From the NCBI GenBank assembly GCA_903916675.1, contig CAIWXQ010000018.1:62001-126000 (forward strand): DNA of 64,000 bases, in the 5' to 3' direction. The stretch is from an uncultured bacterium. Lineage in GTDB: Bacteria; Verrucomicrobiota; Kiritimatiellia; RFP12; CAIWXQ01. Under the pieces are notes generated by a model. It ran no database searches. It saw nothing but the letters and a program-made list of their open reading frames with translations, and was not told the origin of the DNA. Every line of letters begins with the position of its first letter. Within the stretch, counting starts at the first letter, position 1. Position numbers and translations under genes: made by a program. This document shows, one piece after another, positions 3,049-64,000 of this stretch.

Positions 3049-3135
3049 GGCGGCGATTATCCTCGCGCCGGAGCCGACGTCAAGCGCCGACGCGCAAGAA
3101 CTATACACGACGCCAGAAATTCTTGCGGCGGTTCA

Positions 3136-3189
3136 GGTAGGGACGCCTCTCCGAGGCGTCCGCGGACGGCTCGGAGAGCCATCCCTACC
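3136..3189. repeat. 54-bp double-hairpin repeat, copy 1
   Basis: Outer arms GGTAGGGAC and its imperfect complement ATCCCTACC enclose two inner hairpins, (GGAC)GCCTC-TCC-GAGGC(GTCC) and GGCTC-GGA-GAGCC, joined by the palindrome GTCCGCGGAC. The same 54-bp design recurs at 37475 and 47815. Here the element lies between queF (minus) and the prepilin gene (plus). Copies differ by compensated changes in the hairpin arms, which argues that secondary structure is selected. Confidence 0.9.
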
Positions 3190-12033: not shown

Positions 12034-14610
12034 TCAAGTGGCTGGCCGGGTGCGCGGCAGGCCGGGCAGGTTGGGCGGCGACCAGAGAAAATCGGTGCGG
12101 AACCAGCGTACGCTGTTGCGGCGCAGGACCGGCAGCGCAGCGGCTTGCGAGAAGGATTCCTCCGCGACCGTCACCCAGCGGTTGTCGAGCCGGTGGACCA
12201 CCAGCCGTCCGCCGCGGCGGTTGACTAATCTCCAGGGAGGCGGGCGTTCGCTGGCTACCATTGGCGGCGTTTCGGAGAGGAAGAGCGGCGTGTGCTGCCA
12301 GGCCAGCACCTCGACTTCCGGGCCTTCCTGACTGGCGAACGAGGCGATGTTCTCTTCCGTATCCTCGGGTGCGGCCACGGCGCGCGCTATGCCCAGTTCG
12401 GCCAGCAGGCCGCGGGCGGCGTGGTTCAGGCCATAGAGCGACCAGTCGGCCGTGAGGTGCAGTGGTTCGCGGGTCGCATCGCGCAGCATCTGCCAGCCGC
12501 CCAGACCGGCGCACTCCCACTGCCGCCAGCCATCCGCCAGCAGTGCGGCGATCGTTGTGCGCAGCACCTCTTCCTCCGGTTGACGCGTCACGGCCGGCAA
12601 CGCCAGCCGCAGCCGTGCACGTGGCGCCAACTGCAGCCAGGCTTCCAGTTGGGCGCGAACCGCATCAATGGCCTGATGCCCCAGATAAAGGACGATCTCG
12701 TCCGCCGTGGCCAGCGCTTCCACCGGCGGCAGCGCGAGGTCAACCTTGACCGTCCAGTGCGCAGCCTCGGATTTCGGCGCGACAGGTTCGCCGGCTCGTT
12801 CCACGATGCCGAATGCGGCGCAGGCAGCGGTGCGCCGCGCTTGCCGCGCCGCATCCCATTGCGTGCGGAGCGCGTCGAACAGCTGGCGCCGCGCCTCGTT
12901 CAGCACGGAAACGGGAACGAACAACCCCTGCGGATCGTCCAGTTCGAGCGTTGCCACCTGCCACGGGGTGTCGCCGGAACGCTCGAGCGCACGTCGGAGC
13001 GCAGCTACGGTCTGCTCCGGCTGGCGTGCGGAAGAGAGAGACAATGCGGAGGAGAATGTGGCGGAAATTGCAGGGGCTGGGACACAGTGGGCACGGACGG
13101 GGGTTGGGACACAGAGGTCACTGAGGGGAGATGAGGGCATAGAGGGATTTTGATCCGCGGCAGGCAGCATTCTCTGTGTGCTCATCTCCGCTCGGTGTTC
13201 ACTGTGTCCTGCGCATGTACCTGTCTCCGGCGTATCTGCCAGCACCGTGGCAATGAGCGTCATCCCGTCCGGCCGCAGGGTGGCCTGCACGCGCACCGGC
13301 CGTGTGAAGCGGCAGTCGGTGGGGCGTGGCAGCGTCGCCTGGTAGTGGCGGCGCACGGCCTGCGAGGCGGAGCAGAAGACCGTGGTGCCGTGTGGAATCT
13401 CGGGGATTTCGCCGTCGTCGGGCAGCCGGACCTCGACGGCGTTCCCGGCCGGCACGGAGATCTCGAGGCGGCTGGCGCCGGCGCGACGCAGCGCGTCCAC
13501 GGCGAAGCCGAACGGTTTGCCGCCGCGCGCGGGGTCGATCTGCAGGCCGTCGTGTTTTTCGAGCGCGCGCCGTGTTGTAAAGCGCAGCCAGCGTCCGCCG
13601 CGCGTGTCATGCGTCACGGCATCCGCCGTGCCGATGGGCGCGCCGCGGTGGCCGACGGCCGCGGCGTCGATGATCTTCTCGGCTGGCGTCTCGCGGCTGG
13701 CGGCATAGAGCTGCGTCCAGGGGCGGCTGAAGATGGTCTGCAGGTCCTGCACGCGCGCGACTTCCTCGCTTGGCGGCAGGGTTCCATCGAGCTTGCGGCG
13801 GTAGTAGTCGGTGACGCAGGCAACATAGCAGGCATTCTTCATGCGCCCCTCGATCTTGAGGCTGGCAATGCCGCCGGCAATCAACTCCGGCGTCAGCGGC
13901 GCGAGCGCAAGGTCGCGCATGGAGAAGGGGAACGCGGTGGTCGGGGTGGCGGGGCGGTCGTGCGGGGCGGCCGTGGCGAATGGTTCGCGGCAGCAATAGG
14001 CGCAACGGCCGCGGTTGCCGCTGCGGCCGGTTTGCCGGGCCGAGAAGAGGCAGAGTCCGCTGTAGGAATAGCAGAGCGCGCCATGCACGAAGACCTCAAC
14101 CTCGATGCCCGCCTCGCGGCCGATGCGCGCGGCTTCGGCGAGCGTCAGCTCGCGCGCCAGCACGACGCGGCGGAAGCCTAGCCCGGCCAGGGCGCGGGCA
14201 CCGGCGAGATCGTGCACGGCCAATTGCGTGCTGGCGTGCAGGCGCAGGCGCGGGAAGCAGCGGCGGGCGATGAGCAGGATGCCCAGATCCTGCACGATCG
14301 CTGCATCCACGCCGAGGTCGTCGAGTTCCTCCAGCGTCTCGATGGCGTCGGCCAGCTCGCGCTCCAGAATCAGCGTGTTGAGCGTGACGTAGACGCGGCG
14401 CGGCCGCGGCAGCGCATGGGCATGCGCCACCAGCCGGCGGAGTTCCTCCGGCGTGAGATTGACGGCCTCGGCGCGCGCTGAAAAGCGGCGTAGTCCGGCG
14501 TAGACGGCATCTGCGCCGTAGTGCAGCGCGGCGCAGGCGGCGGCAAAATCACCGGCCGGCGCCAGCAATTCAGGGCGCGCGGGAGGCGGAATGGACGAAA
14601 CGGTGGGCAT
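12034..14610 (-). CDS. U32 family peptidase (DUF3656-containing) with an in-frame repeat insertion
   Basis: 858 residues from the ATG at 14610 (MPTVSSIPPPARPELLAPAG). The U32 catalytic-type domain occupies the first 330 residues: ELLAPAGDFAAACAALHYGADAVYAG split over two strands, VEVFVHGALCYSYSGLC, then the cysteine-rich RGRCAYCCREPF and SLKIEGRMKNACYVACVT. The C-terminal half is the DUF3656-type extension of YhbU/RlhA-like proteins, which in E. coli take part in 23S rRNA hydroxylation. Between VLADTPE and ARQPEQTV an extra 50-60 residues rich in Ser, Pro and Thr are encoded by a palindromic repeat (13077-13225). Frame is kept across it. An upstream extension to 14847 lacks family similarity. 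Confidence 0.88.
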   Translation of the reverse strand: MPTVSSIPPPARPELLAPAGDFAAACAALHYGADAVYAGLRRFSARAEAVNLTPEELRRLVAHAHALPRPRRVYVTLNTLILERELADAIETLEELDDLGVDAAIVQDLGILLIARRCFPRLRLHASTQLAVHDLAGARALAGLGFRRVVLARELTLAEAARIGREAGIEVEVFVHGALCYSYSGLCLFSARQTGRSGNRGRCAYCCREPFATAAPHDRPATPTTAFPFSMRDLALAPLTPELIAGGIASLKIEGRMKNACYVACVTDYYRRKLDGTLPPSEEVARVQDLQTIFSRPWTQLYAASRETPAEKIIDAAAVGHRGAPIGTADAVTHDTRGGRWLRFTTRRALEKHDGLQIDPARGGKPFGFAVDALRRAGASRLEISVPAGNAVEVRLPDDGEIPEIPHGTTVFCSASQAVRRHYQATLPRPTDCRFTRPVRVQATLRPDGMTLIATVLADTPETGTCAGHSEHRAEMSTQRMLPAADQNPSMPSSPLSDLCVPTPVRAHCVPAPAISATFSSALSLSSARQPEQTVAALRRALERSGDTPWQVATLELDDPQGLFVPVSVLNEARRQLFDALRTQWDAARQARRTAACAAFGIVERAGEPVAPKSEAAHWTVKVDLALPPVEALATADEIVLYLGHQAIDAVRAQLEAWLQLAPRARLRLALPAVTRQPEEEVLRTTIAALLADGWRQWECAGLGGWQMLRDATREPLHLTADWSLYGLNHAARGLLAELGIARAVAAPEDTEENIASFASQEGPEVEVLAWQHTPLFLSETPPMVASERPPPWRLVNRRGGRLVVHRLDNRWVTVAEESFSQAAALPVLRRNSVRWFRTDFLWSPPNLPGLPRTRPAT
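13077..13225. repeat. ACACAGAG-family palindromic repeat inside the U32 peptidase gene
   Basis: The left arm GGGACACAGTGGGCACGGAC with GGGGAGATGAGGGCATAGAG is matched in inverted orientation by CTCTGTGTGCTCATCTCCGC and GTTCACTGTGTCCTG. The same GGGACACAGAGGGCACAGAG core occurs inside lipA (39276) and at the right edge of the window (63945). Confidence 0.85.
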
Positions 14611-14906
14611 ATCCGGCAATCCGTCGGCGGAGTTGATTCGCCGGTCATCAGCATACCGTTTCCGGCGGGTGTTGTCCCGCCGGTTCGATTCGGCCAAAAA
14701 TATGCCGTTTTTGCTGATGTTTCGTGCCAACTTCTGACGGCGTGCGGCTGGGACGTGCGGCGGCAACGCGCGCCGGATTGCGGGAGAAAAAAGGATTTTC
14801 CCTGGCCGCATCTTTTTTTTATTGCATTTTCCCAATAACTGCGGCACATTCGCACCAACCGTGGGATATTTCTCACTGCACTGAAACGTTGAAAGGAGTC
14901 AAGGAT

Positions 14907-26975: not shown

Positions 26976-26985
26976 GAATTCCTCG

Positions 26986-27137
26986 TTTCACCGCGAAGGA
27001 CGCGAAGGCGCGCGAAGGGGGTAGGTTGGGTGGTTCCGTACAACACGTTGCATGCCGGCTTTCAGCACTTCTGCGGCAACCATCTCGACATCCATTCTTA
27101 TCACCTTCGCGTTCCTTCGCGTCCTTCGCGGTAAAAA
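26986..27137. repeat. CGAAG-family palindromic repeat inside the nickel transport operon
   Basis: The left arm TTTCACCGCGAAGGACGCGA (continuing AGG) is mirrored almost perfectly by TTCGCGTCCTTCGCGGTAAA. The element fills the gap between nikQ and nikO. Confidence 0.9.
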
Positions 27138-27148
27138 CAGGCCTGTAT

Positions 27149-37398: not shown

Positions 37399-37474
37399 GG
37401 GGCAAGGCTGTTAGGATGAAGCCTGTTAGGCTGCTAGGTTATGCGTCCTCCCGCTTTCCACAGAGGCTTGCCGG

Positions 37475-37528
37475 GGTAGGGACGGTTCTCCGAACCGTCC
37501 GCGGACGCCTCGGAGAGGCGTCCCTACC
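37475..37528. repeat. 54-bp double-hairpin repeat, copy 2
   Basis: Same architecture as the copy at 3136: perfect outer arms GGTAGGGAC/GTCCCTACC, inner hairpins GGTTC-TCC-GAACC and GCCTC-GGA-GAGGC, and central GTCCGCGGAC. It lies between rhodanese and the DUF192 gene. It is identical to copy 3 over all 54 bases. Confidence 0.92.
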
Positions 37529-38881: not shown

Positions 38882-39913
38882 ATGTCGAGTGACGAAAAGA
38901 ACGTGCCGGCCCTTTCCAAGCCCGCCTGGATCCGCGTGCGGGCGTCGGAAGGCGGGGCGTATGCGGAGACGCTCAGCCGCCTGCGCAGCCATCGGCTGCA
39001 CACGGTCTGCGAGGAGGCGCTCTGTCCGAACCGCGGACACTGCTGGTCGCACGGACGCGCCACGATCCTGATCCTGGGCGACCGGTGCACGCGGCGCTGC
39101 CGGTTCTGCCACGTGGACAAGCGCGAAGTGTTGCCGCCGGATCAGGACGAGCCGGCGCGCGTGGCTGCGGCAGTGGCTGCCAGCGGCCTGCGGGAGGTGG
39201 TGCTGACGTCCGTGACGCGCGACGATCTGCCCGATGGCGGCGCAGCGCTCTGGGCCGAGACGATCCGGCGCGTGAGTCAGATAGATGTGGCAGGGACACA
39301 GAGGGCACAGAGGAATACTGAGGGCACTGAGGCTCCAGCGGGCACTTGCAGTCCTTTCGGCCTGCAAGGCCGCCCGCTTCCTCAGGGTGCGCAATCTTCC
39401 TCTGTGATCTCTGCGTCCACCCCACTGTCTACTGCTCGCATCCTCGTCGAGGTGCTGGTGCCGGATTTCGGCGGGTGCGCGGCAGCGGTGCGGCTGGTGT
39501 GCGAGTCGCGGCCGGCGGTCTTCGGCCACAACCTCGAGACTGTGTCGCGTCTCTACCCTGCGGTGCGGCCGGAGGCTGACTACGCGCGGTCGCTGAACGT
39601 GCTGCGAATTGCCGCCCGGTCCGGGCTGATCACCAAGACCAGCCTCATGCTTGGCATGGGCGAGACGCGTGAGGAGATTGAGCAGACGCTGCGCGACGCC
39701 CGCGCGGCCGGCGTGCGCATCCTGTATTGTGGACAATACCTGCAGCCCACGCGCGAACATCTGCCTGTAGCGCGCTACCTGCCGCCTGCCGAGTTTGCTG
39801 AGATCGGCGAAGTGGCGCGACAAATTGGCTTCGACTTCGTCGCCAGCGCGCCGCTCGTGCGCAGTTCCTACCATGAGGAAGGGCAGTCTGCTTTTGTGCG
39901 GCAGGCGCGGTAA
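38882..39913 (+). CDS. lipA: lipoyl synthase with an in-frame repeat insertion
   Basis: 343 residues. Both cluster motifs are intact: the auxiliary cluster CX4CX5C at C43, C48 and C54 (CEEALCPNRGHCW) and the radical SAM motif CX3CX2C at C69, C73 and C76 (CTRRCRFC). The C-terminal serine motif region is RSSYHEE. LipA inserts two sulfurs into octanoyl groups on lipoyl domains. Between TIRRV (residue 131) and ILVEVLVPDF (residue 187) the usual 7-10 residue loop is replaced by about 55 residues coded by a palindromic repeat (39276-39436). The frame and all catalytic motifs survive, so the protein may be active. lipB is not in the window. Confidence 0.93.
   Translation: MSSDEKNVPALSKPAWIRVRASEGGAYAETLSRLRSHRLHTVCEEALCPNRGHCWSHGRATILILGDRCTRRCRFCHVDKREVLPPDQDEPARVAAAVAASGLREVVLTSVTRDDLPDGGAALWAETIRRVSQIDVAGTQRAQRNTEGTEAPAGTCSPFGLQGRPLPQGAQSSSVISASTPLSTARILVEVLVPDFGGCAAAVRLVCESRPAVFGHNLETVSRLYPAVRPEADYARSLNVLRIAARSGLITKTSLMLGMGETREEIEQTLRDARAAGVRILYCGQYLQPTREHLPVARYLPPAEFAEIGEVARQIGFDFVASAPLVRSSYHEEGQSAFVRQAR
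39276..39436. repeat. ACACAGAG-family palindromic repeat inside lipA
   Basis: The left arm includes GGGACACAGAGGGCACAGAG and GAATACTGAGGGCACTGAGG. The right arm is its complement (CCTCAGGGTGCGCAATCTTC, CTCTGTGATCTCTGCGTCC). A central stem GCGGGC/GCCCGC with CTTGCAG/CTGCAAG completes a near-continuous palindrome of about 160 bases. Confidence 0.9.
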
Positions 39914-47771: not shown

Positions 47772-47814
47772 GCAAACCTACAGAGGCTTACACAAGTAGG
47801 TAACCGGTTGTTCG

Positions 47815-47868
47815 GGTAGGGACGGTTCTCCGAACCGTCCGCGGACGCCTCGGAGAGGCGTCCCTACC
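47815..47868. repeat. 54-bp double-hairpin repeat, copy 3
   Basis: Identical to copy 2 at 37475 over the full 54 bases. It is placed 43 bases after the Gfo/Idh stop codon. The motif CAGAGGCTT occurs a few bases upstream of both copy 2 and copy 3. Confidence 0.92.
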
Positions 47869-48535: not shown

Positions 48536-48593
48536 CGATATTCCGCACGCAGCCAGGTAGGGTGGATCCGCCGCACAAATAAGCTTCTCCAAT

Positions 48594-48810
48594 CGAACCG
48601 CAGAACAGCAGAGTGCTGATTGTTGAAGTAAAATTTCAACACTCTGCGGTTGGGTGTTCGTCACTCTGAGGTTCGCGTGTAGATATCCCTGTGCTGGCGC
48701 ATCTCTTGGTTGAACCCGATTTCGACGAGCGAACCGTAGAACAGCAGAGTGCTGATCGTTGAGGTAACACTTCTGAACTCTGCGGTTGGTTGATCGGCAA
48801 TCTGCGGTTC
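48594..48810. repeat. two direct copies of an 80-bp palindromic repeat
   Basis: Copy one starts at 48594 and copy two at 48730. Both contain GAACCG(C/T)AGAACAGCAG, AGTGCTGAT(T/C)GTTGA and CTCTGCGGTTGG, and end with a second CTCTG(A/C)GGTTC or ATCTGCGGTTC. The ends pair as GAACCGCAGA/CTCTGCGGTT. Together with 48826-48895 they fill the gene-free stretch 48536-48963; no coding sequence is supported there. Confidence 0.85.
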
Positions 48811-63944: not shown

Positions 63945-64000
63945 CGTCAGGGACACAGAGGGCGCAGAGGAAAACTGAGAACACAGAGGGGAAGTTGGCG
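63945..64000. repeat. ACACAGAG-family repeat, left arm at window edge
   Basis: CAGGGACACAGAGGGCGCAG with AACTGAGAACACAGAGGGG matches the left arms of the copies inside lipA and the U32 peptidase gene. The right arm would lie beyond the window. Confidence 0.8.

Follow-up and report, generated by a model that had tools for sequence, protein, structure and literature searches.

A palindromic repeat of about 150 bases is inserted in frame within lipA, the only lipoyl synthase gene found in the genome of an uncultured member of the Kiritimatiellia. In our reading, to which we assign a probability of roughly 0.83, the insert, a selfish palindrome of MITE-like or REP-like type, is translated into a disordered loop and the enzyme still works; we infer translation of the insert and LipA activity from sequence comparison and a structure model. 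The gene and its insert lie in a window of 64,000 nucleotides, the whole stretch of DNA that was analysed, and comprise the following features:

38882 to 39913, plus strand: lipA, lipoyl synthase of 343 amino acids with the in-frame insert (TIGR00510 score above cut-off, PDB matches, catalytic residues)
39275 to 39439, plus strand: insert segment, 165 nt compared with 18 nt in a relative of the same genus, which makes lipA longer by 147 nt net (49 codons) (DNA and protein alignment)
39278 to 39434, no strand assigned: full extent of the imperfect palindrome, with its weaker outer arms (self-complement alignment, DNA fold)
39294 to 39332, plus strand: left arm, family consensus GGACACAGAGGGCACAGAGG...TGAGNNCACAGAGG
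39333 to 39379, no strand assigned: middle part of the repeat, which is a hairpin of its own (AGCGGGC...GCCCGCT) and differs between copies
39380 to 39418, minus strand: right arm, an inverted copy of the left arm

As stated in the first-pass annotation of this DNA, the reading frame, the six cluster cysteines and the C-terminal motif survive the insertion. The frame runs over 343 codons without a stop or frameshift, C43, C48, C54, C69, C73 and C76 of the two cysteine motifs are all kept, and R327-S-S-Y330 (RSSY) is intact. With 326.8 bits the product exceeds the cut-off of the TIGR00510 lipA equivalog profile (310.25 bits), the match being split into two stretches around the insert; likewise, M. 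tuberculosis LipA (5exi) can be aligned only to residues 8-135 and 189-331. Both flanks of the insert are, as judged from codon comparison with the congeneric genome, under purifying selection (dN/dS of 0.128 before and 0.120 after the insert), a ratio that spans the whole time since the split of the two genomes and in which a very recent loss of function would stay invisible. The same genome encodes GcvH and one LplA/LipB-family protein, hence LipA has a likely substrate. No second, intact lipA was found in this 87%-complete assembly. As a correction to the label "essential-type" enzyme, the gene is not universal: LipA is patchy in the order, with matches in 15 of 59 genomes, of which one is weak.

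The segment 39276-39436 had been described as a near-continuous palindrome, and the statistics bear this out. Its self-complementarity score is 30, compared with a mean of 8 over 1000 shuffles, none of which exceeded 15, and its DNA fold has a z-score of -4.8. Among 3192 stepped segments of 161 bases in the window, the one at 39281 ranks second for self-complementarity. The core of the palindrome (39294-39418) has the arms GGACACAGAGGGCACAGAGGAATACTGAGGGCACTGAGG and CCTCAGGGTGCGCAATCTTCCTCTGTGATCTCTGCGTCC, and pairing extends through weaker outer arms as far as 39278 and 39434. Neither a phage or plasmid match nor an Rfam match (structured RNA or intron) near the gathering score was obtained for the insert segment.

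Other palindromes occur in the window as well. The top self-complementarity score belongs to a third palindrome at 26981-27141, whose arms are of the CCGCGAAGGACGCGAAGG type and also follow a 9-nt unit. A second, unrelated family of near-perfect palindromes (GGTAGGGACG..CGTCCCTACC) is present at 3135-3189, 37474-37528 and 47814-47868, two of its copies being identical over 55 nt, and two direct repeats of 90 nt each (48585-48674 and 48721-48810, 81% identical) contain inverted segments of the GAACCGCAGA type.

The insertion site lies between TIRRV and ILVEV. In the one other genome compared from the same genus, LipA is 82% identical on both sides of the insert and the site is empty, as it is in every other LipA compared. 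The 37 other LipA matches, which comprise 21 distinct sequences, all have a spacing of exactly 31 residues from VTRDDL to E-L-PDF; here it is 80, i.e. 49 more, in agreement with the earlier estimate of about 50 extra residues; the consensus of a wider, mostly actinobacterial set (n=34) has the same motif spacing as the other LipAs. No target-site duplication is visible at lipA, where the ancestral segment of 18 nt is too diverged to be placed.

An AlphaFold2 model built with 33 LipA relatives reached a mean pLDDT of 81 and TM-scores of 0.85-0.91 (by target length) with solved LipA structures, whereas residues 141-184 remained below a pLDDT of 50. The fold is thus predicted to be preserved, with the insert as a disordered loop between helix 121-132 (followed by a short helix 137-140) and strand 188-192. 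In TIM-type barrels, radical-SAM active sites are located at strand ends from which the helix-to-strand side faces away. Translation of the repeat into about 50 residues of LipA is the best reading of kept frame, purifying selection on the flanks and a predicted intact fold.

It is conceivable that the insert has recently inactivated lipA, leaving a young pseudogene that merely looks intact, while lipoylation proceeds by scavenging through the LplA/LipB-family protein. Such a protein is indeed encoded, and most genomes of the order are without lipA, which shows that the clade tolerates losing it. We nevertheless consider this unlikely, given that 343 codons are without stop or frameshift, that the catalytic residues are all kept, that dN/dS is low on either side of the insert, and that the repeat is found in frame in other conserved genes too.

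The repeat belongs to a dispersed family. A search of the own genome, a draft of 48 contigs, with the element yielded 62 matches, and the arm pattern occurs 78 times in forward and 78 times in reverse orientation, compared with 4 and 2 occurrences of a reversed control pattern. This amounts to about 70 repeat footprints with 42 two-armed copies, drawn from the genome stretches around repeats, an approach that may miss weak copies. Taken over 145 arm matches, the consensus reads roughly TACA(A/C)GGGTT-GGACACAGAGGGCACAGAGGGAGATGAGCACACAGAGG; the arms are in effect a 9-nt unit, NNCACAGAG, plus spacers. Interiors are variable, and the arms also differ between copies. The congener is nearly devoid of the arm pattern (3 and 1 matches), and related arms are patchy over order and phylum (52 of 289 genomes), the own genome being the richest in arm matches among those searched. 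The simplest reading of this distribution is that the repeat expanded after the split from the congener. The family is best explained as a putative non-autonomous palindrome of 80-200 bp, MITE-like or REP-like. Short units with terminal inverted repeats and of non-coding type, as in MITEs, are represented by the arms of the 42 two-armed copies; the MITE assignment is not firm, and we infer mobility as the source of the copies.

Contrary to the earlier view of an otherwise intergenic family, further copies are located within conserved genes. In the window, these and an additional copy are:

12037 to 14898, minus strand: U32-family peptidase frame with DUF3656, 954 codons from stop to stop, with a copy in frame (Pfam PF01136 and PF12392; segment missing from relatives)
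13080 to 13209, minus strand: second full intragenic copy in the window, inside the U32-peptidase gene
63951 to 64000, plus strand: further family copy, intergenic, running past the right edge of the window

Outside the window, uvrC harbors a full copy in frame (L195:5066-5184) between RRY and LPDLVLVDGG, and a gene for an RlmL-like methyltransferase has a half copy in a length-variable loop (L195:8460-8499). Orthologues of the uvrC, U32-peptidase and RlmL-like genes in relatives are without the repeat segments. In the congener, which yielded no match to the RlmL-like gene, uvrC and the U32 gene each have their own, different extension near the insertion site, which suggests that these are tolerant loops. 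Read in frame, the right arm gives SSSVxSxST in both lipA and uvrC, whose reading differs from SSPLSDLCVPT in the U32 gene and from PLRPLCP in the RlmL-like gene; accordingly, several frames of the repeat are used. In uvrC (L195:3664-5664; G000 C8:48747-50747), the copy lies inside the RNase H domain, and the frame ends 25 nt into a second copy (L195:5639-5758), such that its C-terminal residues are also repeat-derived.

The remaining copies are mostly intergenic. Frames reading through copies were listed and scored for codon usage, and part of them was scanned against Pfam and NCBIfam. Of the frames with a coding signal that reach a copy, 17 end at most 14 nt before it and 6 inside it, stops inside a copy usually being located about 25 nt from the copy edge. 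Among 12 same-strand cases, a non-exhaustive set, no gene was found to be split by a copy, as the frame upstream ends either close to the element or within it. Many copies in the stretches L184-L234 start at most 14 nt past a stop codon or provide the stop codon, a pattern that might reflect a function at the ends of transcripts or no more than selection against copies elsewhere. Long frames over other copies were rejected as copy-bearing genes: five of the frames scanned, a set that included L219, L192, L215, L228, L225 and L211, have no Pfam match spanning the element, the Pfam match of the L219 frame belongs to the downstream gene, and the L188 and L218 frames look, by inspection, like run-ins to a downstream gene start.

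With regard to why frames stay open, 130 of 252 frames of the 42 two-armed copies are open, compared with 68.6 expected after shuffling. As the arms are stop-poor and one length in three is a multiple of three, roughly one in six insertions would be readable (~0.17 per copy). If reading were irrelevant, the chance that all three full intragenic copies are readable would be about 0.005, a value biased by the fact that open frames were the search target. This bears on the alternative that the palindrome is transcribed but not translated, either because ribosomes bypass it, as they do the palindromic elements of Magnusiomyces mitochondria, or because it is removed from the RNA. A strong hairpin at a site otherwise constant in length would suit this explanation, and bypassed palindromes are known from yeast mitochondria (cited in PMC6649704). 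However, bypassing would work without an open frame and at any length, and the three full intragenic copies are all open and divisible by three in length; this and the low chance value, even with its bias, make the alternative very improbable, and for RNA removal no intron family was matched.

An assembly error is even less to be expected. Although a metagenome-derived draft with a repetitive family invites such errors, misassembly through a dispersed repeat joins different loci, whereas the two halves of lipA belong to one gene, ordered and in frame, as do those of uvrC and of the U32-peptidase gene; moreover, the element is short and its arms differ between copies. Finally, the fact that the insert stays open in the sole lipA could be taken to mean that the added loop was put to use and kept by selection, e.g. 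for H protein contacts or regulation, but we give this hardly any credence since the loop is found in no other genome, is predicted to be disordered, and the corresponding peptides in other genes derive from different frames.

By analogy, the lipA repeat family would work like several known cases. Closest in kind are the Rickettsia palindromic elements (RPE; Ogata et al. 2000, 2002), which, according to the review PMC2229807, are about 105-146 bp long, stop-poor, located between genes as well as in frame in conserved genes, and empty in relatives; 19 reading frames were given in the first RPE report, and a guanylate kinase bearing an RPE is active. Wolbachia palindromic elements (WPE) are stop-free and lie in frame in conserved genes, among them addA, addB and priA (PMC4224334). 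The family described here shares this organization: dispersed stop-poor palindromes of about 100-150 bp in many copies, with copies in frame in several conserved genes (lipA, uvrC, the U32 peptidase and, as a half copy, the RlmL-like gene) whose sites are empty in relatives. The likeness is one in kind, drawn from the published descriptions of RPE and WPE. Unlike RPE, our repeat resides in another phylum and a GC-rich genome, has arms built on a 9-nt CACAGAG unit and is intragenic in few of about 70 copies, and the hosts of WPE are intracellular symbionts.

The bacterial MITEs ERIC, YPAL and the 107-bp Correia element, which may be fused in frame to genes (PMC2229807), are similar in that they are inverted repeats about 100-200 bp long, have open frames and are mostly intergenic and at times intragenic; they differ from the lipA repeat, for which no target duplication is visible at the insertion site and a search of the Y1 family gave no parent transposase. 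REP/REPIN sequences with RAYT (PMC3733652) are likewise dispersed palindromes, many near gene ends, but the lipA repeat is longer than single REPs, and we do not file the family as REP/RAYT because the 87%-complete assembly gave no match to the Y1 (RAYT) transposase (PF01797). In nematomorph mitochondria, inverted repeats are read as protein (PMC6649704), yet those coding palindromes are perfect, encode conserved residues and are not inserted dispersed repeats. An in-frame palindrome case has also been noted in Methanocaldococcus (cited in PMC2996958). No published description of the arm sequence was recognisable in the open-licence literature, and the palindrome family, from the Verrucomicrobiota, is apparently undescribed, no earlier report having been found for this phylum.

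Under our preferred reading of a translated selfish palindrome, the repeat would have multiplied in this lineage and inserted in the helix-to-strand loop of LipA before the strand ILVEV. Since the net gain of 147 nt equals 3 x 49 and the arms are stop-poor, the lipA frame would stay open, and the repeat would be transcribed and translated with lipA to give a disordered, exposed loop that does not alter the active site. Selection would remove insertions that are out of frame or at an intolerant site, and the survivors would be intergenic copies, copies shortly after stop codons and those in a small number of tolerant loops.

Rickettsia and Wolbachia are the main known sources of in-frame coding palindromes, and scattered cases have been described in enterobacteria, Neisseria and an archaeon. 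The Kiritimatiellae family, together with its nearly repeat-free congener, offers a before-and-after system for the passage from selfish DNA to protein, and the tolerance of LipA for 49 residues is directly testable, as this enzyme has solved structures and a standard complementation assay. More tentatively, and at odds we regard as rather low, a stop-poor palindrome of 9-nt units that is readable in about half of its frames may keep supplying new protein segments outside the Rickettsiales, even in a length-constant loop of LipA, which would make protein-coding palindromes, no longer peculiar to intracellular symbionts, a general route to new loops.
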